Shown: one piece after another, positions 44,555 through 56,109 of the stretch
How the letters are laid out: each line of letters opens with the position of its first letter
How positions within the stretch are numbered: the stretch's first letter is position 1
NCBI GenBank assembly: GCA_013140975.1
Contig: JABFRV010000041.1
Span: 1-64,000 of the forward strand
From: Saprospiraceae bacterium
GTDB lineage: Bacteria > Bacteroidota > Bacteroidia > Chitinophagales > Saprospiraceae
DNA length: 64,000 nt
Direction of reading: 5' to 3'
Program-made: the position numbers and the translations under genes
The notes under the pieces: generated by a model
The model's input: the letters and a program-made list of their open reading frames with translations, nothing else
Database searches by the model: none
What the model was told of the DNA's origin: nothing

Positions 44555-46258
44555 TTAAGAATCGGCTTTTATTAACTTTTTATGCAATCGCCAACGTGCC
44601 TGGTGCACAGATTTACTTGAAATCCCCAAAATTTTAGCTGCCTCTCGGTCACTTAGTCCTAACTTTTCAAGTGCCATCAATCGTAAATCAGCCGGACTTG
44701 TGTTTTTATGAATATTTCTTTGTTCATCCAGATAGCCAGGATACACCTTTTCAAATAAGTTACGAAAAGTTAACCATGCTTCTTCTGTGAGAAGAGTGCT
44801 ATGTGTGAGCGCTTCTAAAAACTCATTTCGCTCTCCGGAATTCATGAGTCTTTCATTCTCGGCTTGGAGCCTTTCTGCCAGTTCCGATTTTTCACGAATA
44901 TTCGCCGTGAATGAATTGAGCGCATTTCTCGCAGATTCTAATTGCAGAATTGAAAGCTTCTGCTTATAAGAAAGCTTTCTATAATTGACATAACTAAGTA
45001 TTAATAAAAATAACAAAGTAAGAAATGTAGAATTACGCAACAATTTATTTCTTTCTTTTTCATTCTCAATCATAAGAATTTGTTGCGTGTATTTTTGCGC
45101 ATCATGAAGTTGCTGGATCTTATTCAATTTATTAGCATCATTTCGCCGATCAAGACTGTCCCGGACAAGATTCGCATAATTCTTATATTTAAGGGCTTCT
45201 GGATAATTACTTTTCATTGCAAAATATTGTGAAGCAGACTCAAAATAATTCAGGTTCTTGAAATAATATTCTTCCGACTTACCATTCACTTTAAAAATCT
45301 CCTCCATTTTTTCGAGCAAAGAGAATACCTGATCCATCTTACCTAATTTAAGCTTGGTAGAAATTAGAATCGGTAACATGTCGTATAGAGTCTGTGTATC
45401 ACCTTTTATTAGTTCATAACCCTTATCCGCAATGATCTCACCTTCAGAAAATTTTCCTTGCTCTGTTAGCATTGTAGCAATGTCAATGGAAACTATTCCT
45501 TGCCAGGTACTACAAAATTTGACTTGATCGGGCTTATAACTTGGACAATTCTGCATCGTCTCGAAGATTTCCCAGGAATACTCCAATCCTTTTTCATAGT
45601 TTTTCTTTTTTTGATAAATAGTCTCTATGTGGTTCTTAATATATGTCCAGTATACCAACCCTTTAATTGTTGGCTCAGCATATTTTTCGGCTGTTAATAA
45701 AATATCCAGTGCTTTATTGTAATTATCTAAATTATAGATGAATTTTCCAGAATGAAACAACAATTGGTCAATATCATACGGTTTAAAGTTCTCAAAACCC
45801 AATTGCGTCATTCTATCTAAATCTTTCAAGATACCGGAATACAACTGTTCATAAGTAATCTCTTTTAAATCAAATTGAGAAAATAGAATGTAATGTTCTG
45901 CTACTACTTGTTCAATTTCCAGGCCAGCATGTACCGCTTCATTCTTTAAGTCCTCCACAAGTGCTGCCATCTCAGTATTGCTAAACTTCATATTTTCTCG
46001 TTGCAAGAAATACTCGTATCGCAACGCCCAGCTGGTTCTATTGTCTTTTTCCTTTTGGGTGATAAACATCAAAGCATGGTAACTTTCAAAAAATGAAGCA
46101 GTGTCTAGTAATTCGAGATTTAAGCTTTGTACATATTGAAAACGTTGATCAGGATTCATTTTGTAAAAATTATCCAGATCCAGATCTGTTATCTTTGCTT
46201 CAGTGAGTTGCAAGAGATTGCAACACAATATAGTTAGAATCGATTTGATTCGTTTCAA
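44555..46258 (-). CDS. TPR membrane protein with C-terminal LuxR-like helix-turn-helix
   Basis: 567 residues. A signal-like N-terminus (ILTILCCNLLQLTEA) is followed by ~340 residues of TPR-type helices (KALDILLTAEKYAEPTIKGL; GLEYSWEIFETMQNC; ALKYKNYANLVRDSLD). A transmembrane helix (~412-428, TFLTLLFLLILSYVNY), a cytoplasmic coiled coil and a C-terminal HTH (LRLMALEKLGLSDREAAKIL, GISSKSVHQARWRLHKKL) follow. This architecture is common in Bacteroidota: a periplasmic TPR sensor linked to a DNA-binding head. It is upstream of, and in the same orientation as, the small membrane protein and the two secreted paralogues, so it may control them. The ligand is unknown. Confidence 0.85.
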   Translation of the reverse strand: MKRIKSILTILCCNLLQLTEAKITDLDLDNFYKMNPDQRFQYVQSLNLELLDTASFFESYHALMFITQKEKDNRTSWALRYEYFLQRENMKFSNTEMAALVEDLKNEAVHAGLEIEQVVAEHYILFSQFDLKEITYEQLYSGILKDLDRMTQLGFENFKPYDIDQLLFHSGKFIYNLDNYNKALDILLTAEKYAEPTIKGLVYWTYIKNHIETIYQKKKNYEKGLEYSWEIFETMQNCPSYKPDQVKFCSTWQGIVSIDIATMLTEQGKFSEGEIIADKGYELIKGDTQTLYDMLPILISTKLKLGKMDQVFSLLEKMEEIFKVNGKSEEYYFKNLNYFESASQYFAMKSNYPEALKYKNYANLVRDSLDRRNDANKLNKIQQLHDAQKYTQQILMIENEKERNKLLRNSTFLTLLFLLILSYVNYRKLSYKQKLSILQLESARNALNSFTANIREKSELAERLQAENERLMNSGERNEFLEALTHSTLLTEEAWLTFRNLFEKVYPGYLDEQRNIHKNTSPADLRLMALEKLGLSDREAAKILGISSKSVHQARWRLHKKLIKADS

Positions 46259-47026
46259 TGGAGGTTTGTTGGCAACAGCGAATATGGGGTTTTTTTAGGA
46301 AAATAAAAAATTTAATTCGCTCAATTCAAAGAACTATGATATGCTGTACATTTAATCTCTCATAAATAAATATTATTTGCATATATACTGTTCTAATTTG
46401 ACAGCTGGAAGTATAGACATATAAGTTTAGTTCCTTCTACCTGTTCAGTCTTTCCCTGAACCTTGAATATTACACGTGTCGAAGTGAAGTCTCCCGGTCA
46501 GAACTTAATATCCGGTTGTCAAGTCGAATTGGCCAGATATCAATCCTATTCTAAGTTTCGAATGTCAATAAATTATAACTTTGTAACTTACCAGAGGATT
46601 GTCTACAACCGTAATTATTCAAAATTAGGTATTTCAGTCTCTTTTTATAAGCACGCCGGAAAGCGTAAAGAATTTCCGGATCGTAAAGAATTAAAGAAAT
46701 GTTGCCCAGAAAATTCTATTAAACTTGGCCTAAAGAATGTTCTTTCAATTCGGGATCTTGCAAGGAATGGGATAACAGTATAATTTATTGGAATAAATTG
46801 AATTAAAAAACAAAGCTGCCCACAACAATGTATAATCGATTATGTTCCTATAGGGTCGTATTGCAAAAAGACCCTCTGTTGTGAATAATTATAAATAGCA
46901 ATTTCAAAACAATCAAAAAACAAATGCTGATACGCGAATTAACATGCTTGATTGAACCTGCTAATTGTAGTTTATCTTTCAAAAAGTACAGGTAATATTC
47001 TTTTTCAATTTTTTATAAGAACATAA
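46259..47026. other. Long intergenic region, possible structured element, no convincing gene
   Basis: 768 nt between divergent genes. An open frame at 46463-46783 (106 codons) can only start at TTG, has no recognisable domain and is not accepted as a gene. No TAnnTTTG box is obvious before the bestrophin gene. A nested inverted-repeat structure occupies 46821-46883 and is listed separately. Confidence 0.5.
46821..46883. other. Possible three-way-junction RNA or DNA structure
   Basis: An outer stem CACAACA (46821-46827) / TGTTGTG (46877-46883) encloses two inner helices: the palindrome ATAATCGATTAT (46832-46843) and AGGGTC (46852-46857) / GACCCT (46870-46875). Together they could fold into a three-way junction in the leader of the bestrophin gene, ending 143 nt before its ATG. 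It does not match a riboswitch class I know. Confidence 0.35.
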
Positions 47027-48010
47027 ATGTATACGAAGAAAAATTATGGCTTTTGGATGACTTTCAACTGGTCAAAAAAACCATTTATTATAGGGTTATT
47101 ATATTCCGGAATTATCTGTTTATTGACTTATTATTTCCAACTTTCAATATCTCTGCCCTGGCAACCAATAGGAGTAATTGGTATTGCAGTTGCATTCTAT
47201 TTGGGTTTTAAAAACAATAGCTCTTATGATAGAACATGGGAAGCGAGAAAAATTTATGGCGGAATTGTTAACGATAGCAGATCAATTGGTGTTGCTATAG
47301 CTTCTTTTGTGCAAGGTGATAATGCAGATGTAATTAAAAAAGAATTAATTTACAGACACATTGCATGGCTCACCGCTCTTCGCCACCAACTTCGGTTAAG
47401 CAAGCCATGGGAACATATAGAAAATAGAATAAATGGAATGTACGCACCGGTTGTGTGTGAAGATTATGACAACAAACTTCATAAAGAGTTATCCGAATAC
47501 CTTTCTGAAGCAGAAGTCATAGAATTAAACTCTACTACGAATAGAGCTACTCAAATTTTAAAGAAACAATCGGAAAGATTTCAAGAACTGAAAAACAGTG
47601 GATACTTTGATGATTTTAGGCATATGGAATTTCATAAGCACATCAACAATCTGTATGATGGGCAAGGCAAAGCTGAAAGGATTAAAAATTTCCCTTTTCC
47701 AAGACAATACGCATCAACAGCTCTTTGGTTAACTCTCGTATTCTGTACAATTGTTCCATTCGGATTACTTGAAATCTTTACCGGAAATATTTGGAGTCAG
47801 ATTTTTTGTTCTATTATGTCTGCACTCATTATTTGGGTATTTTTTCTTATGGAAAAAATCGGAGATTATTCGGAAAATCCATTTGAAGGCACCTACAATG
47901 ATGTCCCAATAACTTCTATTTCAGTCGGGATTGAGATTGATTTAAGAGAAATGATAAACGACAAAAATATTCCGCTTCCGGTAGTGGCTGAAAATGGTTT
48001 TTTAATGTAG
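47027..48010 (+). CDS. Bestrophin-family (UPF0187) membrane channel
   Basis: 327 residues. The bacterial bestrophin pattern is present: FNWSKKPFIIGLLYSG, LPWQPIGVIGIAVAFYLGFK, then NNSSYDRTWEARKIYGGIVN, and a second membrane block near ~230-275 (PRQYASTALWLTLVFCTIVP; SALIIWVFFLMEKIGDY). The ending ENPFEGTYNDVPITSIS (the family's conserved ENPF) is followed by EIDLREMIND. Members form pentameric ion channels (bacterial homologues conduct cations) in the inner membrane. The gene appears monocistronic, with hairpins downstream at 48063-48123. Confidence 0.92.
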   Translation: MYTKKNYGFWMTFNWSKKPFIIGLLYSGIICLLTYYFQLSISLPWQPIGVIGIAVAFYLGFKNNSSYDRTWEARKIYGGIVNDSRSIGVAIASFVQGDNADVIKKELIYRHIAWLTALRHQLRLSKPWEHIENRINGMYAPVVCEDYDNKLHKELSEYLSEAEVIELNSTTNRATQILKKQSERFQELKNSGYFDDFRHMEFHKHINNLYDGQGKAERIKNFPFPRQYASTALWLTLVFCTIVPFGLLEIFTGNIWSQIFCSIMSALIIWVFFLMEKIGDYSENPFEGTYNDVPITSISVGIEIDLREMINDKNIPLPVVAENGFLM

Positions 48011-48062
48011 ATCATACGTGTCCAAAATATATTCCAAATAAGTGGCTATCAAGCGAATATAT

Positions 48063-48123
48063 TTTTAACCCTAAACTTTAGTTTGGGGTTAAAAGATGCT
48101 TATAAATAAAGGGCTTCAGCCCT
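48063..48123. terminator. Two hairpins after the bestrophin gene
   Basis: The first (48063-48094) is TTTTAACCC-T-AAAC, loop TTTA, GTTT-G-GGGTTAAAA, a 14-bp stem with one G-T pair. The second (48110-48123) is AGGGC-TTCA-GCCCT. Both could stop transcription, but neither has a T-run; the paired AACCC/GGGCTTCAGCCC layout also looks like dispersed palindromic repeats. The rest of the gap to 48272 holds a near-consensus TATCTTTA about 30 nt before the pirin start. Confidence 0.5.
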
Positions 48124-48272
48124 GAAATAAATAATTATATTGGACGGTTGTAAATGTAGATATGAATTCAACGATTCTCAATCATCAGATTTTCATATGC
48201 TATCTCCTATTTTTATATTCCTAAGATTTCTAAACTGACCTATCTTTACAAAATAATATTAAAGCAAATAAT

Positions 48273-49151
48273 ATGGAACGGAAAGAATTTTTAAAATCAG
48301 CAATTCTTACAGGCGCAGTTGGGGCTATTGCTCCACAATTGCTCAATGCAAAAAATAGCGAGACTGAAAAATCAACCTACGATACTTTAATGCAACAAGT
48401 AGGCTTTAATCATTTACCAAATAAAGAGAATAAAACAATGAATTCCGTAATTCACAAAGCAGGTACTCGTGGTGATGCCAACCACGGTTGGTTACACAGC
48501 AAACACTCATTTAGTTTTGCCAATTATTACAACCCTGAAAGAATGCACTTTGGCGTGCTAAGAGTTTTAAATGACGATATTGTTGCACCCGGAATGGGTT
48601 TTGGCACACACCCCCACGACAACATGGAAATTATTTCCATTCCATTGGAAGGAGATTTAGAACACAAAGACAGTATGGGAAATGTAGCCGTAATCAAACA
48701 AGGTGATGTACAAGTTATGAGTGCAGGAACAGGCATTACCCATTCTGAATACAATAAAAATAAAAATAAAGAAGTCAAATTTCTTCAAATCTGGTTATTC
48801 CCCAACAAGAAGAATGTAACTCCACGATACGACCAAATTTCAATCAGAGATATTGAAATAGAAAACAAGTTTTATCAGGTTCTTTCTCCTAATAAAGACG
48901 ATCATGGAGTGTGGATAAATCAAGATGCCTGGTTCCATTTAGGAAAATTCAAAAAAGGAATTTCTGATGAATACAAAATTAAAAAAGCAGGAAATGGTGT
49001 TTACGTATTTATCCTGGAAGGCGAAGTAGAAATAAACAACGAAAAGCTATCCAAAAGAGATGGAATGGGTGTCTGGGATACAGACTCAATAAAAGTAAAA
49101 GCATCCGAAAACGCTCGTGTACTTTTAATGGAAATACCGATGAGTATTTAA
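48273..49151 (+). CDS. Pirin-family cupin protein with an N-terminal export-like signal
   Basis: 292 residues. Residues ~58-292 are a pirin/YhhW-type bicupin: AGTRGDANHGWLHSKHSFSF, FGVLRVLNDDIVAPGMGFG, the metal-binding HPHDNMEIISIPLEGDLEH, DVQVMSAGTGITHSE and FLQIWLFPNKKNV. The His/His/Glu ligands of the N-terminal cupin appear present. The first ~27 residues (MERKEFLKSAILTGAVGAIA, PQLLNA) look like a Tat signal with RK in place of RR. Such pirins act as quercetinase-like dioxygenases or redox-sensing proteins, usually in the cytoplasm; export would change that role. An internal Met near residue 55 could start a normal cytoplasmic pirin, so both forms are possible. Confidence 0.88.
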   Translation: MERKEFLKSAILTGAVGAIAPQLLNAKNSETEKSTYDTLMQQVGFNHLPNKENKTMNSVIHKAGTRGDANHGWLHSKHSFSFANYYNPERMHFGVLRVLNDDIVAPGMGFGTHPHDNMEIISIPLEGDLEHKDSMGNVAVIKQGDVQVMSAGTGITHSEYNKNKNKEVKFLQIWLFPNKKNVTPRYDQISIRDIEIENKFYQVLSPNKDDHGVWINQDAWFHLGKFKKGISDEYKIKKAGNGVYVFILEGEVEINNEKLSKRDGMGVWDTDSIKVKASENARVLLMEIPMSI

Positions 49152-49287
49152 TATTTGTCGACAGAAGATCATTCTATCAGTAGATAAAATTAAAATTATT
49201 TTACATGACTACAAAATGGATGCTTCAATAAAAGTATCTATCACTATTATTGACAAGCACAATACCGAAATTATATTGATTCATCAA

Positions 49288-49956
49288 TTAATCAAAAACT
49301 ACAAAGATATTTTCTGCAAATTTTTGACTAACACTTGATTGCTGTCCATTAACTTCTATTAGCATCATGGCATCATAATCCTGTCTTGACAATACTTTTA
49401 TTTCATTGTTTATACCCAATCCCACTTTTACAACATATTGCAAAAAAGAATTTGAGTTATCTTTTACTGCTATCATCTTACAGGATTTTCCAACTGCAAT
49501 CTCAGCTAGTGTGGTTTTGTGTTGAACCTTGAACTTCCCTTCCTTATTGGGTATTGGATCTCCGTGTGGATCGAACTCCGGATAATCCAAAAACTTTTCC
49601 AATTTATCGATTAATTTATCTGATTTTATATGTTCCAATTGTTCGGCGACATCATGAACCTCATCCCAGCTAAAATCTAATTTTTCATACAAAAAAGTTT
49701 CCCATATACGATGCTTTCGAATGATTTCTAAAGCGATTTTGGTTCCTTGATTTGTTAAGTTTATTTTTCCATATTTTTCATAACTAACAAGTCCTTTTTC
49801 TTTCAACTTTTTAAGCATATCATTTGCCGTAGCAGGTTTTACAGCCAAATGACTTGCCAATTCATTAGTGCCTGCTTCAGAATTTGCATTTTCCAAAACA
49901 AGCTTAATCAATGTTTTTAAGTAATTTTCTTCCGTATGACTTAGTAATGCATTCAA
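49288..49956 (-). CDS. DtxR/MntR-family metal-dependent transcriptional regulator
   Basis: 222 residues: an N-terminal winged HTH (HTEENYLKTLIKLVLENANS; AVKPATANDMLKKLKEKGLV), a metal-binding dimerisation domain (IIRKHRIWETFLYEKLDFSW; DEVHDVAEQLEHIKSDKL), and a C-terminal FeoA/SH3-like domain (TTLAEIAVGKSCKMIAVKD). In HDVAEQLEH, Glu occupies the place of the DtxR cysteine, as in MntR, which hints at manganese rather than iron sensing; the Asn in TEENYL, at the place of another ligand, leaves this open. It diverges from the di-heme/Rieske/porin operon. The shared region contains promoters in both directions and a perfect inverted repeat, so it likely represses that operon when metal is bound. 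Confidence 0.9.
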   Translation of the reverse strand: MNALLSHTEENYLKTLIKLVLENANSEAGTNELASHLAVKPATANDMLKKLKEKGLVSYEKYGKINLTNQGTKIALEIIRKHRIWETFLYEKLDFSWDEVHDVAEQLEHIKSDKLIDKLEKFLDYPEFDPHGDPIPNKEGKFKVQHKTTLAEIAVGKSCKMIAVKDNSNSFLQYVVKVGLGINNEIKVLSRQDYDAMMLIEVNGQQSSVSQKFAENIFVVFD

Positions 49957-49974
49957 TCGTACTTAAAATTTTGA

Positions 49975-49982
49975 CAAAGATA
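49975..49982 (-). promoter_or_regulatory. -7 promoter box of the DtxR-family gene
   Basis: The minus strand reads TATCTTTG (TAnnTTTG), 18 nt before the ATG at 49956. Confidence 0.6.
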
Positions 49983-50004
49983 AGAAATTAATCAAACTTT
50001 ATTT

Positions 50005-50020
50005 GTTAGATACCTCTAAC
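50005..50020. promoter_or_regulatory. Candidate DtxR/MntR operator
   Basis: GTTAGA-TACC-TCTAAC is a perfect 6-bp inverted repeat that resembles the core of DtxR/IdeR/MntR boxes (TTAG...CTAA). It lies between the TTTG (-33, 50002-50005) and TATATTTG (-7, 50026-50033) elements of the di-heme operon and about 50 nt from the regulator start. A bound regulator would block RNA polymerase. Confidence 0.65.
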
Positions 50021-50025
50021 TTTTA

Positions 50026-50033
50026 TATATTTG
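50026..50033 (+). promoter_or_regulatory. -7 promoter box of the di-heme/Rieske/porin operon
   Basis: TATATTTG (TAnnTTTG) lies 20 nt after a TTTG -33 element (50002-50005) and 21 nt before the ATG at 50055. The TTG that would give the longest frame (50031) lies inside this box, so it is not the start. Confidence 0.65.
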
Positions 50034-50054
50034 CCTAATCTTACCATACAATAC

Positions 50055-51266
50055 ATGTTTAAGCAATTAAAACCAACATATATAATAGTATCCATCCTTA
50101 TCTCATCGATTGTGTTCTTAGTCGCCTGCTCTGAACTTGAGCCTGCAGCACCTGCTGACGAAGACATATTAGATGGACCACTTGAAGGTCTAACGAATGC
50201 ACAAAGCGCACAATTCCTTGCAGGAGATATTGCATTTAATGATGAAATATTTACAAAAGACAAAGGGCTTGGTCCTGTCTTTGTTGCTACGAGTTGCGGC
50301 AGCTGTCATGCCGGAGATGGAAAAGGAACACCGTTCACTACTCTTACAAGATTTGGTCAAGTTGATCATACAGGAAACAAGTTTTTACATTTAGGTGGAC
50401 CTCAATTACAGAACAGATCGATTCCAGGATTTAATCCGGAAACAATTCCAACAGGTGCTACATTCTCAAAATTTACTCCTCCTGCCAATACCGGATTAGG
50501 TTTTATAGAATTGGTTCCGGATTCTGCAATTCTTGCTTTGTCAGATCCAAATGATATGAATGGTGATGGAATATCCGGAGTGCCAAACTGGAACACAGTT
50601 CCTTCATATGTTGATATTCTGGAAAATGCGATTTCACAAAATGGCAAATACATCTGCCGCCTTGGCAAAAAGGCATCTACTTTCAATTTATTACAACAAA
50701 CAGTAAATGCTTATAATCAGGATATAGGAATAACTTCAACTTTTAATCCAATCGATGTTTATTCCGGACACAGCATTGATCCCGAAGTATCTGACAAAAC
50801 GGTAAGAGATGTCGTAGCATATCTACAAATGCTAAAAGCTCCTATACAAAGAGAAACAGAAAATGTAGAAATTGAGAATGGTAAAAATTTATTTATTCAA
50901 ATAAAATGTGCAGCCTGTCATGTTCCACAATTGCAAACAGACTTCTCCATTATATCTGCTTTATCATATAAAACATTTTATCCTTACACCGATTTGTTAT
51001 TACATGACATGGGTAGTGATCTGGATGATGGCTATACGGAAGGAAGTGCGAAAACCTATGAATGGCGCACACCCCCACTCTGGGGCTTAGGATTATCTCC
51101 CGGATCACAAGGAGGTAAATATTTTTTAATGCACGATGGCCGGGCCAAAAGTATTGAGGAAGCTATAGAAATGCATGGAGGAGAAGCAGCGCAGAGCAAA
51201 AACAACTTTCAACAATTGTCAGCTACTGATAAAGAAAAATTAATTCAATTTTTAAAATCCTTATAA
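50055..51266 (+). CDS. Di-heme oxidoreductase-family (DUF1111-like) lipoprotein
   Basis: 403 residues from the ATG at 50055. The lipoprotein signal ends at FLVACS (Cys25), so it is anchored facing the periplasm or outer membrane. Two c-type heme motifs are present: CGSCH (Cys81, Cys84, His85) in VATSCGSCHAGDGKG and CAACH (Cys285, Cys288, His289). The DHOR signatures DGISGVPNW, LLLHDMGSDLDDGYTEGSA, EWRTPPLWGLGLS and MHDGRAKSIEEAIEMHGGEA are clear. These proteins resemble cytochrome c peroxidases but their reaction is not settled; links to metal metabolism are known from context. It starts the operon with the Rieske lipoprotein and porin, under a putative DtxR/MntR operator. Confidence 0.88.
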   Translation: MFKQLKPTYIIVSILISSIVFLVACSELEPAAPADEDILDGPLEGLTNAQSAQFLAGDIAFNDEIFTKDKGLGPVFVATSCGSCHAGDGKGTPFTTLTRFGQVDHTGNKFLHLGGPQLQNRSIPGFNPETIPTGATFSKFTPPANTGLGFIELVPDSAILALSDPNDMNGDGISGVPNWNTVPSYVDILENAISQNGKYICRLGKKASTFNLLQQTVNAYNQDIGITSTFNPIDVYSGHSIDPEVSDKTVRDVVAYLQMLKAPIQRETENVEIENGKNLFIQIKCAACHVPQLQTDFSIISALSYKTFYPYTDLLLHDMGSDLDDGYTEGSAKTYEWRTPPLWGLGLSPGSQGGKYFLMHDGRAKSIEEAIEMHGGEAAQSKNNFQQLSATDKEKLIQFLKSL

Positions 51267-51334
51267 ACATATTCAAAGGATAAATTCTAAAATGCAAACA
51301 GAATTACTAGCCAATAAATAAAAATGTTTAAAAA

Positions 51335-51778
51335 GTGAATAGAAAGAAATTTATAAAAACCTGTGGCCTTGCTTGTTTAAGCACAAGTGCATTTGGCCTG
51401 CTCTTACAAAGCTGTAGCGGCAGTAAAATTATTGCAGCGCAAATCGTTGGTGAAAATATTATTGTACCACTTAAGGATTTCGAAATAGTAAAAAAATCTG
51501 AGAAGGCTTATAGAAATTATTTGGTAATACAAAATGAAAAACTAAAATATCCCATCTATATATTTAGATTTTCCGAAAAAGAATATTCAGCATTGTACAT
51601 GCAATGTACTCATCAGGGAGTAGAACTTACTGCATATGGTGACAAATTAGTATGCTCTGCTCATGGCAGCGAATTTGACAACAAAGGCAACGTACAAAAT
51701 TCTCCGGCAAGCAAAGCATTGCGAACATTTCCGGTAATATCAGAAAATAATCAATTAAAGATCTCATTAAAATCATGA
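51335..51778 (+). CDS. Rieske [2Fe-2S] lipoprotein
   Basis: 147 residues starting at GTG (51335). The N-terminus NRKKFIKTCG and hydrophobic AFGLLLQSCSGS give a lipobox with Cys27 (preceded by an RK Tat-like motif, suitable for export of a folded iron-sulfur protein). The Rieske cluster ligands are Cys91 and His93 in MQCTHQGVEL and Cys107 and His110 in LVCSAHGSEF; ALRTFPV follows. It probably passes electrons between the di-heme protein and another carrier at the envelope. It is 68 nt after the di-heme gene and overlaps the porin gene by 4 nt, so all three are one operon. Confidence 0.9.
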   Translation: MNRKKFIKTCGLACLSTSAFGLLLQSCSGSKIIAAQIVGENIIVPLKDFEIVKKSEKAYRNYLVIQNEKLKYPIYIFRFSEKEYSALYMQCTHQGVELTAYGDKLVCSAHGSEFDNKGNVQNSPASKALRTFPVISENNQLKISLKS

Positions 51779-52995
51779 TAAAAAAGATAGTACTCTTCTG
51801 CATTGCGTGCATGTACGCCCAATTAACTTTTGCCCAGATTGATTCCACTTTATTAAATAATGTTATTGCAGACACAGGTAAACAGACTTTAAATATGGAT
51901 GCTGTTTACAATAGACCCTTTTTAGGAATTGGAAAACTACCCGTCTCATTGGGTGGTTATGCTGAAGTAAACTGGCAACATATAGGCACAGACGGAGTAA
52001 GCGAGGGACATCAATTTCAAATGCGAAGAATGACTTTGTTTGTTGCATCGACAATTAGCAAGAAGATAAAGTTTTTGAGTGAAATAGAATTGGAAGAAGG
52101 TGGTAAGGAAATTAGTGTAGAGTTTGCTTCCATTGATGTGGAATTTCATCCCTTATTAAATCTACGTGGCGGTATTGTTATGAACCCTATCGGATCATTT
52201 AACCAAAATCACGACGGACCCAGATGGGAGTTTACCGATAGACCAATTTCCGCAACGCAAATGTTAGCTGCAACCTGGAGCAATGCCGGATTTGGATTAT
52301 TTGGAAAGACATATAAAAACAATTGGATGTTTGGCTACGAAGCTTACCTGACGGGTGGCTTTAATGATGACATAATAGATAATGAAATGAACAAAACATT
52401 TCTTCCCGCTGCCAAAGTCAGTGCAGAACGTTTTGAAGAAGGAAACGCATTGTTGACAACTAAGATTGCAACACGCCATTCCAAATTTGGTGAACTTGGA
52501 TTAAGTTATATGGGAGGAAATTATAACACTTATAAAAATGATGGTATAGTCTTAGACGAAAAAAGACAATTACATGTTTTTGCAATGGATTACAACACAA
52601 CACTGCCAAAAATAAATACAACAATCACGGGTGAATGGGCATGGATAAATATTGATGTACCATCTAGCTTTACACAACAATACGGCAACAAACAGCGAGG
52701 TGGATTTCTGGATATTGTTCAACCCATATTCAAGAGAAAAATTTTAGGTTGGGATAAAGCAGTCGTAAACCTATCTTGTCGATTGGAATATGTAGACTGG
52801 AACGTTGGGACGTTTAACGAAACGGGAGATAATATTGGCGATAATTTATGGAGCGTCATGCCGGCAATTAGCTTCAGACCAACTGCTCAAACTGTATTTC
52901 GATTCAATTACAGATATCAGTTACAAAAAGATGTTTTGGATAATGATCCTTCTAAGACCGGAGGATTTAGCTTTGGTATTTCATCTTATTTTTAA
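51775..52995 (+). CDS. Outer-membrane beta-barrel porin-like protein
   Basis: 406 residues with a signal peptide (ends near LTFAQ). The body is alternating beta-strand sequence typical of OprO/phosphate-selective-like porins: PVSLGGYAEVNWQHIG, FQMRRMTLFVASTISKKIKF, SEIELEEGGKEISVEFASID, LNLRGGIVMNPIGSFNQNHD, and a final strand TGGFSFGISSYF with terminal Phe. It overlaps the Rieske gene by 4 nt. By context it would bring a substrate through the outer membrane for the di-heme/Rieske pair; given the regulator type, a metal ion or its complex is the best guess (inference). Confidence 0.8.
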   Translation: MIKKIVLFCIACMYAQLTFAQIDSTLLNNVIADTGKQTLNMDAVYNRPFLGIGKLPVSLGGYAEVNWQHIGTDGVSEGHQFQMRRMTLFVASTISKKIKFLSEIELEEGGKEISVEFASIDVEFHPLLNLRGGIVMNPIGSFNQNHDGPRWEFTDRPISATQMLAATWSNAGFGLFGKTYKNNWMFGYEAYLTGGFNDDIIDNEMNKTFLPAAKVSAERFEEGNALLTTKIATRHSKFGELGLSYMGGNYNTYKNDGIVLDEKRQLHVFAMDYNTTLPKINTTITGEWAWINIDVPSSFTQQYGNKQRGGFLDIVQPIFKRKILGWDKAVVNLSCRLEYVDWNVGTFNETGDNIGDNLWSVMPAISFRPTAQTVFRFNYRYQLQKDVLDNDPSKTGGFSFGISSYF

Positions 52996-53140
52996 GGAAT
53001 TAATTTGACTTTATAATACAAAACCTTCATAAGACAATTATCTTCATAAAGATATTATTCATTAGAAAAAATTCAAACAATACAGTTCTCAATAACAAAC
53101 TGATAAACAAGAATCAAAATAAAATAATTTTACCCTTTAC

Positions 53141-53566
53141 TTAAATGGATATTTGATTCTTCCCGGATTTCAGTTGTTTATCAAAATAATTTTTCAAAAG
53201 AGGAATTTGAATAAAAAACATTATTGTCGTAAGCACCACCGCATAGGTTGCTACAGACGAAAAATCGAATAATCCGGTAAGATTATCCTTATAGTTTGAT
53301 AGATACTCATTTTTACTAAACCAACCTTTAGTCTGGGATTGAGTATTAAGGATCAGGTATAGAATAAAAGAAAAAATGCAAGTGAAAATTGCAATAAAAC
53401 CTGAATTTGAAATCAAGGGCTTGTAAACAGTGATATCGCTAGTTTTCGTTGCCAAAACCTGAGACATCACTTTTGAAGTAAAATCATCTGCGGGAGATTC
53501 CAATGAAGCTCCTCTCATTATATTGTGGACTAATTTTTCCAGGTCTTTATCTTCGTTCGCTTTCAT
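53141..53566 (-). CDS. Putative membrane anti-sigma factor
   Basis: 141 residues. A charged N-terminal head (~1-45: DLEKLVHNIMRGASLESPAD, DFTSKVMSQVLA) precedes two transmembrane helices (~55-73, GFIAIFTCIFSFILYLIL; ~100-122, ATYAVVLTTIMFFIQIPL). It overlaps the end of the ECF sigma gene by 20 nt, the usual arrangement of sigma/anti-sigma pairs. No zinc-finger motif is present. The role is inferred from size, topology and overlap. Confidence 0.65.
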   Translation of the reverse strand: MKANEDKDLEKLVHNIMRGASLESPADDFTSKVMSQVLATKTSDITVYKPLISNSGFIAIFTCIFSFILYLILNTQSQTKGWFSKNEYLSNYKDNLTGLFDFSSVATYAVVLTTIMFFIQIPLLKNYFDKQLKSGKNQISI

Positions 53567-54140
53567 AATATTCTAATATTTCTGGCTCCAATCGGTTTTT
53601 CAATATTGAAGTCAATTTTATTTTGCTTCTAAATAATCTCACTTTAACATAGTTTGGAGTAATTCCGATAATCTTTGAAATTTCCTCCAGGGATTGTTCT
53701 TCAAAATAAAACAAAGTTAATAAAAATCCATCTTCTTCCGGTAATAAGCGGATACAATCCTGAATTGTATCCGTTCGTTCTTTTTCGCTGATGGAATCCA
53801 AAACATTTCCTATTGCTTCCATTTTACTCTCTGACCAATCATCCAGAGGAATCGCCTCATGCTCCTTTTTATATTTTTTTATCCGATCTAAGCAAGTATT
53901 GTAATTCACTTTGTAAATCCAGGTCGAAAATTTTGATTCGCCTTTAAACTTATTTAAAGATTGATATACTTTGACAAAGGTATCCTGGGCGGCTTCTTCT
54001 GCCTCTTCCGGTCTCTTCAGCATCTTTACACTTAGTGTATACACCATATCCTTATATCTATCTACCAGGATTGCAAATGCCTTTGCATCACCTCCGACAA
54101 TGAGATTTATATAATGTTGATCTTCTATTATTTGGCTCAC
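53547..54140 (-). CDS. ECF-type RNA polymerase sigma factor (second)
   Basis: 197 residues starting at GTG (54140). Region 2: DAKAFAILVDRYKDMVYTLS, RPEEAEEAAQDTFVKVYQSL and KFSTWIYKVNYNTCLDRIKK. Region 4: IRLLPEEDGFLLTLFYFEEQ, SLEEISKIIGITPNYVKVRL. This is a standard SigW/RpoE-like ECF. A TGTAACC-N16-CGTC promoter lies directly upstream, and the mirror-image promoter drives the divergent DUF6249-like gene, indicating autoregulation. No ATG occurs in the first 38 residues, so the GTG is accepted. It overlaps the membrane anti-sigma gene by 20 nt. Confidence 0.93.
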   Translation of the reverse strand: MSQIIEDQHYINLIVGGDAKAFAILVDRYKDMVYTLSVKMLKRPEEAEEAAQDTFVKVYQSLNKFKGESKFSTWIYKVNYNTCLDRIKKYKKEHEAIPLDDWSESKMEAIGNVLDSISEKERTDTIQDCIRLLPEEDGFLLTLFYFEEQSLEEISKIIGITPNYVKVRLFRSKIKLTSILKNRLEPEILEYYESERR

Positions 54141-54151
54141 CAGTTATATTG

Positions 54152-54178
54152 GACGACAAGTTAATGAATTCGGTTACA
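54152..54178 (-). promoter_or_regulatory. ECF-type promoter of the second sigma operon
   Basis: On the minus strand TGTAACC (54178-54172) and CGTC (54155-54152) are separated by 16 nt, matching classical ECF -35 (AAC) and -10 (CGTC) elements. The start codon at 54140 would give a leader of only a few bases. Confidence 0.75.
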
Positions 54179-54210
54179 AGATACTCAATAAAAAAATAAA
54201 TGGTAAATCC

Positions 54211-54237
54211 TGTAACCTCATAAACAAAGCCATCGTC
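54211..54237 (+). promoter_or_regulatory. ECF-type promoter of the DUF6249-like gene
   Basis: TGTAACC (54211-54217), 16 nt, then CGTC (54234-54237), identical in motif and spacing to the divergent promoter at 54152-54178. The leader to the ATG at 54285 is about 40 nt. Confidence 0.75.
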
Positions 54238-54284
54238 ATAGTCTCTGTAAACAATTATTCATATTTAAATTTAAACAAAACAAC

Positions 54285-54629
54285 ATGGAAGCAGAAATAA
54301 TCGTACCCATAAGTTTCGCTTTACTCATATTCGGAGTTTGCTATCTTTATTTTTCAACCCGTAACCGTGAGCGATTAGCCTTAATAGAAAAAGGAGCAGA
54401 TGCAAAAATCTTTGTTAGTGGAAATAAATCTGGAATTTCCACTTCAAAAGTACTCATTCTGAATCTCTCTCTGTTATTAATGGGAATCGGATCAGGGGTT
54501 TTCATTGGCCTTTTACTAACAGCTTACACTGCACTTAGCGCTGATGGTATTTATCCTGCCAGCATATTTACTATGGCCGGAATTGCATTATTTATTGGGT
54601 TCAATATTACCAAGAATTTAGATAAGTAG
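54285..54629 (+). CDS. Small membrane protein, DUF6249-like
   Basis: 114 residues: an N-terminal transmembrane helix (~5-23, VPISFALLIFGVCYLYF), the conserved-looking RNRERLALIEKGADAKIF, then two more helices (~48-75 LILNLSLLLMGIGSGVFIGL; ~88-107 ASIFTMAGIALFIGFN). The RxRERxALIEKG motif is typical of DUF6249-type proteins that sit beside ECF sigma factors in Bacteroidota, from memory. It diverges from the sigma/anti-sigma pair and has the same ECF promoter, so it is a likely regulon member. Function unknown. Confidence 0.8.
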   Translation: MEAEIIVPISFALLIFGVCYLYFSTRNRERLALIEKGADAKIFVSGNKSGISTSKVLILNLSLLLMGIGSGVFIGLLLTAYTALSADGIYPASIFTMAGIALFIGFNITKNLDK

Positions 54630-54685
54630 TAATATTACTGTACAATGTTATAGTTATAATAACATAATTACATTTAGTAAAATAA

Positions 54686-54904
54686 CATTTTAGAGGCGAT
54701 AAAAAGTTCAAGTACAAATTTGAAGACAATGAAAGTGGGCAAATAACTGAAACTAATTATAAAGTATTATTATTAAAAAGTGAAAATACTAAGCATAACA
54801 TCGGATTGGTTATATTGAGACTGAAGTTATTCGATGAAATCTTCCCCTCCTGGACGGAACAAATACAAGTTAAAGCACGAAAAGTTTTCAAGTTTCAAGA
54901 TTAG
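54686..54904 (+). pseudogene. Start-less coding-like fragment
   Basis: A frame opens after a TAA at 54683-54685 and runs 72 codons to TAG at 54902-54904. It contains no ATG, GTG or TTG near its beginning. The translation (KFKYKFEDNESGQITETNYK; KHNIGLVILRLKLFDEIF) is compositionally protein-like. It may be the tail of a decayed gene or non-coding sequence; I do not recognise it. The rest of the 54630-54989 gap shows nothing else. Confidence 0.25.
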
Positions 54905-54989
54905 AAATTCTATAGTACTTTAGTGCGAAATATCCGCGACAACTTGTGCCGCCAAAGCGGTCACACCAATCACGGAACCCTTACCTACA

Positions 54990-55709
54990 ATGCTTAAAGG
55001 ACAGACTGACATTACATGGTTTCCAAATTCTTGGATACGTTTAAGGACGAACAAGAAAGTTATTTATTTTGACCCAGCCTATCTGACTACCTATTTTACA
55101 AATTATCATGACAAGACGGAATTTTCTAAATGGCCAGGCCCAATAGACGGACTTCCAAACAATCTTGAAAAAGCGGACATCATTTGTATTACACATCATC
55201 ACAAAGACCATTGCAAGAAAGTAACTACCGATAGACTAAGGAAAAAGGAAACCAAGGTATTTGCGCCAAAGTCTTGTTTGCCTGAACTTAGAGACAGCTT
55301 TCAGGTAGTTAAAATTGGTGATAGATTTAAAATTGATAAAGATATCAAATTAGAGGTGGTTGACGCTTACAATACTGTAGACGGTTCATCAACACGTAAG
55401 CAACATAAAAAAGGTAAGGGCTGCGGATATGTTATGACACTTGGAAAACTTAGAGTTTATCATTTGGGGGATACGGACTATTTACCCGAAATGAAAAATC
55501 TAAAAAATATTGACATTGCATTCGTGCCAATGGGTGGAAAATTTACAATGGACGCAAATGAGGCGCTTGAAGCAACCAAAGCAATTAGTCCTAAAATTGT
55601 CATTCCGGTACATAAACTTGACAAAGACTTTGGTGATTTTGCGAAAGGATTAAAAGGAAATAAAATAAAATGCCTTGTTCCAGAAATTGGGAAACCAATA
55701 ATAATATGA
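54990..55709 (+). CDS. MBL-fold metal-dependent hydrolase (UlaG-like)
   Basis: 239 residues, a compact metallo-beta-lactamase fold: DITWFPNSWIRLRTNKKVIY, FDPAY, ADIICITHHHKDHCKKV (HxHxDH-type metal site, here THHHKDH), KLRVYHLGDTDYLPEM (metal-binding Asp), IDIAFVPMGGKFTMDANEAL and IVIPVHK (C-terminal His). It belongs to the broad UlaG/RNase-Z-like group, whose members act on varied phosphodiesters, lactones or nucleotides. It is cytoplasmic and stands alone. The flanking sequence (54920-54975) is more GC-rich than the surroundings, which may mark a recent arrival. Confidence 0.88.
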   Translation: MLKGQTDITWFPNSWIRLRTNKKVIYFDPAYLTTYFTNYHDKTEFSKWPGPIDGLPNNLEKADIICITHHHKDHCKKVTTDRLRKKETKVFAPKSCLPELRDSFQVVKIGDRFKIDKDIKLEVVDAYNTVDGSSTRKQHKKGKGCGYVMTLGKLRVYHLGDTDYLPEMKNLKNIDIAFVPMGGKFTMDANEALEATKAISPKIVIPVHKLDKDFGDFAKGLKGNKIKCLVPEIGKPIII

Positions 55710-56109
55710 AAGCACATGCATAAAACACGGGTTTTGCGATAGTGTGCTGATCCCTCATGTACGGGCTGATTAAAAGATAATTAAGCAACTAAAAAACATT
55801 ATTGCTGGCAGACAATTTACAATTTTTAAATGTACTTCACCACCAAGCCTATTGCAGTAATACGCATAATCTTTCTTCTCTGATTAAATATTCTGCGAAT
55901 TTAAAATGACTCCATTCTAAGCAGTATCAAAGACGTTCGACTATCACTTCTCCATAACAGCTTTCAACAATAATACTTTTCAGTATCATTTCTGTATGAT
56001 TTAAATTATTTAAGCAAATGACCAATGTCATCACTTCAGTAATTATCTGTAATAAATTTACAGAATAATAATTCAACTCTATTCATTTACATAAACCTAA
56101 AACATTATT
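55710..56109. other. Intergenic region, no gene seen
   Basis: 400 nt between the MBL-fold and Kelch genes. No accepted ORF, RNA or promoter consensus. A 20-codon minus-strand frame near 55930-55992 (MILKSIIVESCYGEVIVERL) reads like a protein start but stops at once; it is too short to call. Confidence 0.4.

Follow-up and report, generated by a model that had tools for sequence, protein, structure and literature searches.

In the IdeR/DtxR system, the site bound by a single dimer is defined as TTAGGNNNNCCTAA in the available text of PMC8464063. In Stenotrophomonas, a TonB receptor of Mn/Fe starvation with a CxxC motif in its plug is controlled by an MntR box, and a CQNC family of such receptors has been described there; the CxxC-plug receptor module is reported for Lysobacterales, Sphingomonadales and Opitutales, and the part of the paper available contains no word beginning 'Bacteroid' (PMC13217887). 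DUF1111 proteins have been described as di-haem peroxidases, and di-haem DUF1111 proteins accompany imelysins in Fur-regulated operons considered to be iron-uptake systems (available text of PMC3143127).

The locus described here lies in a 64-kb stretch of Bacteroidota DNA, referred to below as the window. A gene for a DtxR-family regulator and an operon for a di-haem oxidoreductase (DHOR), a Rieske protein and a beta-barrel diverge from a gap of 98 bp (49957–50054, given an operon start at ATG 50055), which holds a palindrome and promoter-like elements in both directions. The features are:

49288–49956, minus strand: DtxR-family metalloregulator with a C-terminal FeoA/SH3-like domain, 222 aa, TTG start (from Pfam)
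49975–49982, minus strand: –7-like box TATCTTTG of the regulator promoter, 22 bp from the operator
50002–50005, plus strand: –33-like TTTG of the operon promoter, sharing base 50005 with the operator
50005–50020, no strand: predicted operator GTTAGA-TACC-TCTAAC, GTTAGATACCTCTAAC (from sequence, pattern search and conservation)
50026–50033, plus strand: –7-like box TATATTTG of the operon promoter, 20 bp after the TTTG
50055–51266, plus strand: DHOR lipoprotein with two CXXCH motifs and the lipobox LVAC (PF06537, E 6.5e-65; motifs)
51335–51778, plus strand: Rieske [2Fe-2S] protein with a lipobox-like N-terminus and GTG start (PF00355, E 1.3e-12; CTH...CSAH motif)
51775–52995, plus strand: predicted outer-membrane beta-barrel, porin-like (BBP2 in aligned copies)

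The palindrome and its place in the promoter

Promoters of Bacteroidota have TTTG at –33 and TAnnTTTG at –7. The initial annotation placed the palindrome exactly between TTTG and TATATTTG; its position holds, but the TTTG overlaps it by one base, the last G being the first base of the box. The TATCTTTG which it had read on the regulator strand is present at 49982–49975; in that direction a –33 element would be placed at the operator's edge, where TTTG is absent. The TTG start assigned mechanically to the DHOR frame (50031) falls inside the –7 box, while ATG 50055 leads a lipobox signal peptide, so ATG 50055 is the likelier start.

The 14-bp core of the palindrome, TTAGATACCTCTAA (TTAGA-TACC-TCTAA), has half-sites and a 6-bp spacing identical to those of the single-dimer site TTAGGNNNNCCTAA, and both the TTAG-n-N4-n-CTAA geometry and the regulator family are shared with IdeR/DtxR (available text of PMC8464063). 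The fifth base of the half-site differs, being A/T here (A in the window) instead of G/C (PMC8464063, same text), and an outer G..C pair is conserved here. The 19-bp two-dimer box of IdeR/DtxR, TTAGGTTAGSCTAACCTAA, was not found in the window sequence around 50000–50025.

A palindrome by itself was ruled out as evidence: the window contains 40 perfect 6-N4-6 inverted repeats, so that about 6% of gaps of 98 bp would contain one by chance. A search of the window for the operator at two mismatches gave three sites against 2.48 expected, which is chance level, and an Rfam search of 46000–56000 gave no match.

The case for a functional site comes from the orthologues of the regulator. The best 80 relatives from public genomes (58–78% identical) provided 79 upstream regions, one having been dropped for less than 100 bp of sequence, and the box was sought within 250 bp. 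The best match to GTTAG-N6-CTAAC had 0, 1, 2, 3 or 4 mismatches in 56, 13, 3, 4 and 3 loci, respectively; dinucleotide shuffles (n = 1,580) gave 0, 9 and 160 at 0, 1 and 2 mismatches. The box is thus conserved across orthologues, and a chance origin is untenable. The seven of 79 loci at three or four mismatches count against the reading preferred below.

Its placement is conserved as well. Among 72 sites with at most two mismatches, the divergent strand carries a TAnnTTTG that begins 4–5 bp downstream of the box in 51 (exactly 5 bp in 46), compared with 2.1% of shuffled flanks even when 2–18 bp was allowed; the arrangement first noticed in a single sequence is therefore the common one for this promoter. 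Of the relatives, 53 have a –7 box, and in 34 of these TTTG is also present at a 20-bp spacer; in the regulator direction TAnnTTTG occurs 22–25 bp after the box in 35/72. The window site is not a typical member of the set: its centre, TACC, is an outlier to the usual nTAn (72 sites), and its score of 16.4 lies below the median of the relatives, 23.3.

The genome scan proposed in the initial annotation was run. GTTAGA-N4-TCTAAC occurs exactly once in the 3.97-Mb genome, with seven further places at one mismatch. For GTTAGN6CTAAC at one mismatch there were 36 places against 214 for a reversed control, and hence no genome-wide excess. Eighteen distinct sites from 17 loci, covering part of these 36 places, were set against open reading frames; 12 lie inside frames, and the six intergenic ones are the window operator, two boxes of ABC systems, two sites on contig C14 and a weak one in L204. 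The C14 sites adjoin repeated lipoprotein-like genes without Pfam families. Box-like palindromes occur just behind repeated lipoprotein-like genes at L206:2667 and 4305, probably with no tie to metal control. TTTAGN6CTAAA matched 14 places where the control matched 25; the ABC-system sites are two of the 14. A family-wide pattern, DTTAGRNTANYCTAAH, was dropped as evidence, its control being equally common in many genomes.

The regulator and its divergent partners

The regulator matches Fe_dep_repress (PF01325, E 2.7e-13), Fe_dep_repr_C (PF02742, E 2.5e-32) and FeoA (PF04023, E 2.9e-13), the first two above the Pfam cut-off, and so has the N-terminal winged helix-turn-helix and metal-binding/dimerisation domains that define the DtxR family. 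It keeps six of seven compared ligand positions, which we take to be those of both metal sites in DtxR/MntR: H82, E86, H101, E105 and E108 are present in 80/80 orthologues and H109 in 79/80. All 80 have Glu at the position of DtxR Cys102, as in MntR and unlike DtxR itself; Glu in place of this Cys is a feature of manganese-type members. Position 11 is Asn in the window and in 78 of the 80 orthologues (Asp in two), whereas the N-terminal ligand of B. subtilis MntR is an Asp, D8. Because of Asn11, and since the score against the NCBIfam MntR equivalog NF047407 is 161 bits where the cut-off is 350, the protein is filed as DtxR family, MntR-like, and not as MntR. Asn replaces the Asp/Met ligand at residue 11 also in 43 of 47 paralogues with the T..A box type described below.

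The closest solved structures are 5zr4 (E 7.3e-41), presumably a Deinococcus protein, and ScaR (E 8.6e-33), with SloR also near. These are DtxR-type proteins with a C-terminal SH3-like domain, and the similarity extends over nearly the full length of the regulator; in the alignments the position equivalent to residue 11 is Asp in 5zr4 and ScaR, not Asn. The operators of ScaR and SloR differ from the window box.

The regulator gene is usually found opposite a TonB receptor. Among the 80 regulators, the divergent neighbour is a TonB receptor in 70, DHOR in one (L057), a ZIP transporter in one (L101) and another gene in four, including an NRAMP transporter at L058; four have none within 320 bp. 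CxxC is present in 50 of 65 full-length divergent receptors, in most cases as part of NCN(V/I)C in the plug. Plug variants CNIC, CNVC, CAVC and CQNC occur among the receptors of L039–L118, from many Bacteroidota, and resemble the CQNC family of Stenotrophomonas. Another gene follows the receptor at 35 loci, and at eight of them it encodes a CxxC protein of 120–200 aa, confirmed as thioredoxin-like at L040. In Pedobacter-type loci (L093, L098, L102–L105, L107, L110, L112–L115, L117) a 380-aa protein stands close behind the receptor, and at L093 it matches Pfam DACNV. Within the family and order to which the window belongs, CxxC is present at 26 of 30 receptor loci examined, with an exact TTAG-N6-CTAA upstream in 17 of the 26; the four receptors without CxxC have no box.

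As in the TBDR-pTFP operon of S. maltophilia, the box lies between promoter hexamers with a regulator gene nearby, and the relatives have a CxxC-plug TonB receptor, in some cases with a thioredoxin-like protein behind it (available text of PMC13217887). In contrast to the 25-bp MntR box of S. maltophilia (Lysobacteraceae), a 16-bp box is here combined with a FeoA-domain regulator, and in the window the place of the receptor is taken by the DHOR–Rieske–barrel operon (PMC13217887, as available).

The window therefore falls outside the CxxC-plug receptor module, DHOR being the gene divergent from the regulator. Among the matches listed for its genome, no close receptor with CxxC appears; the best are 35–37% identical and lack CxxC (L360, 37%), which fits a substitution of the receptor by the DHOR operon. 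Such a replacement was rejected as a general rule, since at least six of the 26 other DHOR genomes searched (G183, G249, G204, G062, G252 and G306) have both, with receptor plugs 74–88% identical to the query. NRAMP was sought in the window genome and none was found.

The DHOR operon and the outer base of its box

The first gene of the operon belongs to Pfam DHOR, which we take to be DUF1111. DHOR relatives are present in 55 of 298 genomes of the window's family. In the best 24 loci (L130–L153, the window being L130) the barrel is found in 23 and the Rieske protein in 21; L135 ends at the contig edge, and L151 and L152 have no Rieske match. Two CXXCH motifs are present in 22/22 copies examined. 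The barrel is the least defined component: the window copy has no Pfam match up to 0.001, BBP2 (a porin-like barrel) is matched by three of 18 aligned copies (best E 2.3e-5), the profile has no match up to E 1 among PDB sequences, and structure prediction from two sequences only gave a mean pLDDT of 27.6. Taken together, the lipoprotein cytochrome, Rieske protein and barrel point to a putative outer-membrane redox module. No matching paper was found for the Rieske/di-haem/porin combination in the literature searched. Among the eight operon and flanking proteins (47027–54140) Pfam found no imelysin, and the operon is thus not of the EfeUOB/imelysin type. Near its end are a sigma-70 family factor and a small downstream protein (53141–54140, minus strand). 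Pirin-like and bestrophin-like genes (48273–49151 and 47027–48010) lie behind the regulator, with no link to the box found.

An exact TTAG-N6-CTAA core lies upstream of 19 of 27 DHOR copies (a set that includes L298 and leaves out L153, whose contig starts within the gene), with one mismatch in three more and two in five, while shuffles of these regions gave it in 1/810. The eight regions without an exact core count against the preferred reading. Most of the 19 boxed loci have no adjacent DtxR gene, so the box is not a mere by-product of a regulator in the neighbourhood. Five distant DHOR loci outside such operons (L155–L159) have no exact box. The 5-bp distance to TAnnTTTG is kept in only four of the 27 regions (window, L131, L146 and L057); the spacer placement is hence typical of the regulator's divergent promoter and not of DHOR operons at large. 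The outer bases of the 19 boxes are G..C in five, T..A in eight and mixed in six.

The T..A type leads to a second regulator. A paralogue in the same genome (C55:31399), 41% identical to the window regulator, has TTTAGATTTGCCTAAA upstream and is followed by a ZnuA-family binding protein, whose best PDB matches are mostly of Mn or Fe type (PsaA, MntA, MtsA), and an ABC ATPase. On another contig (L191:3310–4578, minus strand), an ABC-3 metal permease carries a DtxR metal-binding/dimerisation domain as a fusion, so that the transporter contains a regulator-like domain of its own; it has the box TTTAGGCTTGCCTAAA 33 bp upstream. The paralogue's box type is thus TTTAG-N6-CTAAA, beside an Mn/Fe-type ABC system. 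Once other outer pairs had been removed, 109 distinct regulators with an exact core divided into 62 with G..C and 47 with T..A. A TonB receptor is near 54 of 64 G..C regulators and a binding protein near 34 of 47 T..A regulators. All G..C regulators have Lys or Pro at residue 64, where every T..A regulator has Gly. Strong as this association is by count, it was rejected as a statistical test: the regulator tree needs only two changes of outer-base label, which makes it a property of clades and perhaps a single independent case.

Predicted repression by metal and its alternatives

The best explanation as a whole, to which we assign a probability of about 0.86, is that the DtxR-family regulator encoded next to the palindrome uses it as its operator, for metal-dependent repression of the operon together with autoregulation. 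With plentiful metal, most likely Mn(II) and possibly Fe(II), one metal-loaded dimer would occupy the 14-bp core and, lying between the –33 and –7 boxes of the DHOR–Rieske–barrel operon, would block polymerase. The same complex would overlap the would-be –33 of the divergent regulator promoter; this position of the operator is the ground for predicting autoregulation. On metal shortage both the operon and the regulator would be transcribed. Asn11 of the regulator, the low score of the window site with its TACC centre, and the 5-bp distance to TAnnTTTG in no more than four of 27 DHOR regions also weigh against this explanation.

The DtxR-type reading of the box in the initial annotation is borne out by the domains, six of seven ligand positions, the IdeR-like geometry and the conserved position in the promoter spacer. 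Its prediction of metal-dependent repression gains comparative support from the same box type before Mn/Fe transport genes and before lone DHOR operons, and on these sequence comparisons repression and autoregulation are well supported. The linkage of the box to metal-transport genes is observed, as are its sequence, positions and conservation; we infer binding, the direction of regulation and the metal, and a role for the operon in metal acquisition or in adaptation to shortage.

That the palindrome arose by accident, or belongs to a promoter or terminator that no regulator reads, draws on the abundance of such repeats in the window, but is scarcely credible given a box whose sequence, spacing and gene context are conserved across the phylum. 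The adjacent regulator might instead not be the main controller, the box being read mainly by the ABC-linked C55 paralogue: GTTAG..CTAAC and TTTAG..CTAAA half-sites differ solely in the outer base, DHOR operons without a neighbouring regulator mostly have T- or A-flanked boxes in genomes with an ABC-type paralogue, and G..A boxes occur at L142 and L144. This is very improbable, however, since box type tracks regulator clade, with residue 64 differing without exception, and DHOR boxes follow their neighbours, being G..C beside G-type regulators in 4/4 (window, L057, L146, L154) and T..A beside a T-type regulator at L037. A regulator that senses Zn, Co or Ni, or that activates, is somewhat less remote but still unlikely; the near-universal Asn11 and the ZIP partner at L101 would accord with another metal, whereas the invariant Glu at the Cys102 position and the NRAMP and PsaA/MtsA-like partners speak for Mn or Fe, and a box between –33 and –7 occupies the position of a repressor.

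The purpose of the operon is a more evenly balanced matter. It may be metal-regulated and yet serve defence or respiration under shortage, as a peroxidase or electron shuttle, and not uptake; we hold this to be a serious possibility, somewhat short of even odds. The peroxidase description of DUF1111 proteins favours it, as do the redox motifs, Rieske and CXXCH; against it, such proteins accompany imelysins in operons regarded as iron-uptake systems (available text of PMC3143127), and the other genes linked to the box are mostly transport genes. The operon resembles P. aeruginosa PA4370–PA4373 in having a di-haem DUF1111-type protein under metal-starvation control (predicted here), but differs in its Rieske protein and beta-barrel in place of an imelysin and in a DtxR-type box in place of Fur (PMC3143127, as available). 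A bolder proposal is that the operon is a metal-starvation-induced, redox-driven, TonB-independent module for outer-membrane Mn/Fe uptake, placed in this lineage at the promoter that elsewhere drives a CxxC-plug TonB receptor, with the outer base of the operator (G..C or T..A) switched along with the controlling DtxR-family paralogue; this may be so, but is rather doubtful.

On the preferred reading the switch belongs to a type already known, and the interest lies in the genes it would control and in how widely it occurs among Bacteroidota. No description of such a metal-sensing regulon in Bacteroidota was found in the literature titles and abstracts searched, and the box now offers a concrete operator and a candidate regulon for metal sensing in this phylum. 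The CxxC-plug TonB receptor module is extended to many Bacteroidota, and an uncharacterised di-haem/Rieske/beta-barrel operon is placed under a predicted metal repressor, by which its function becomes testable through the supply of Mn and Fe.
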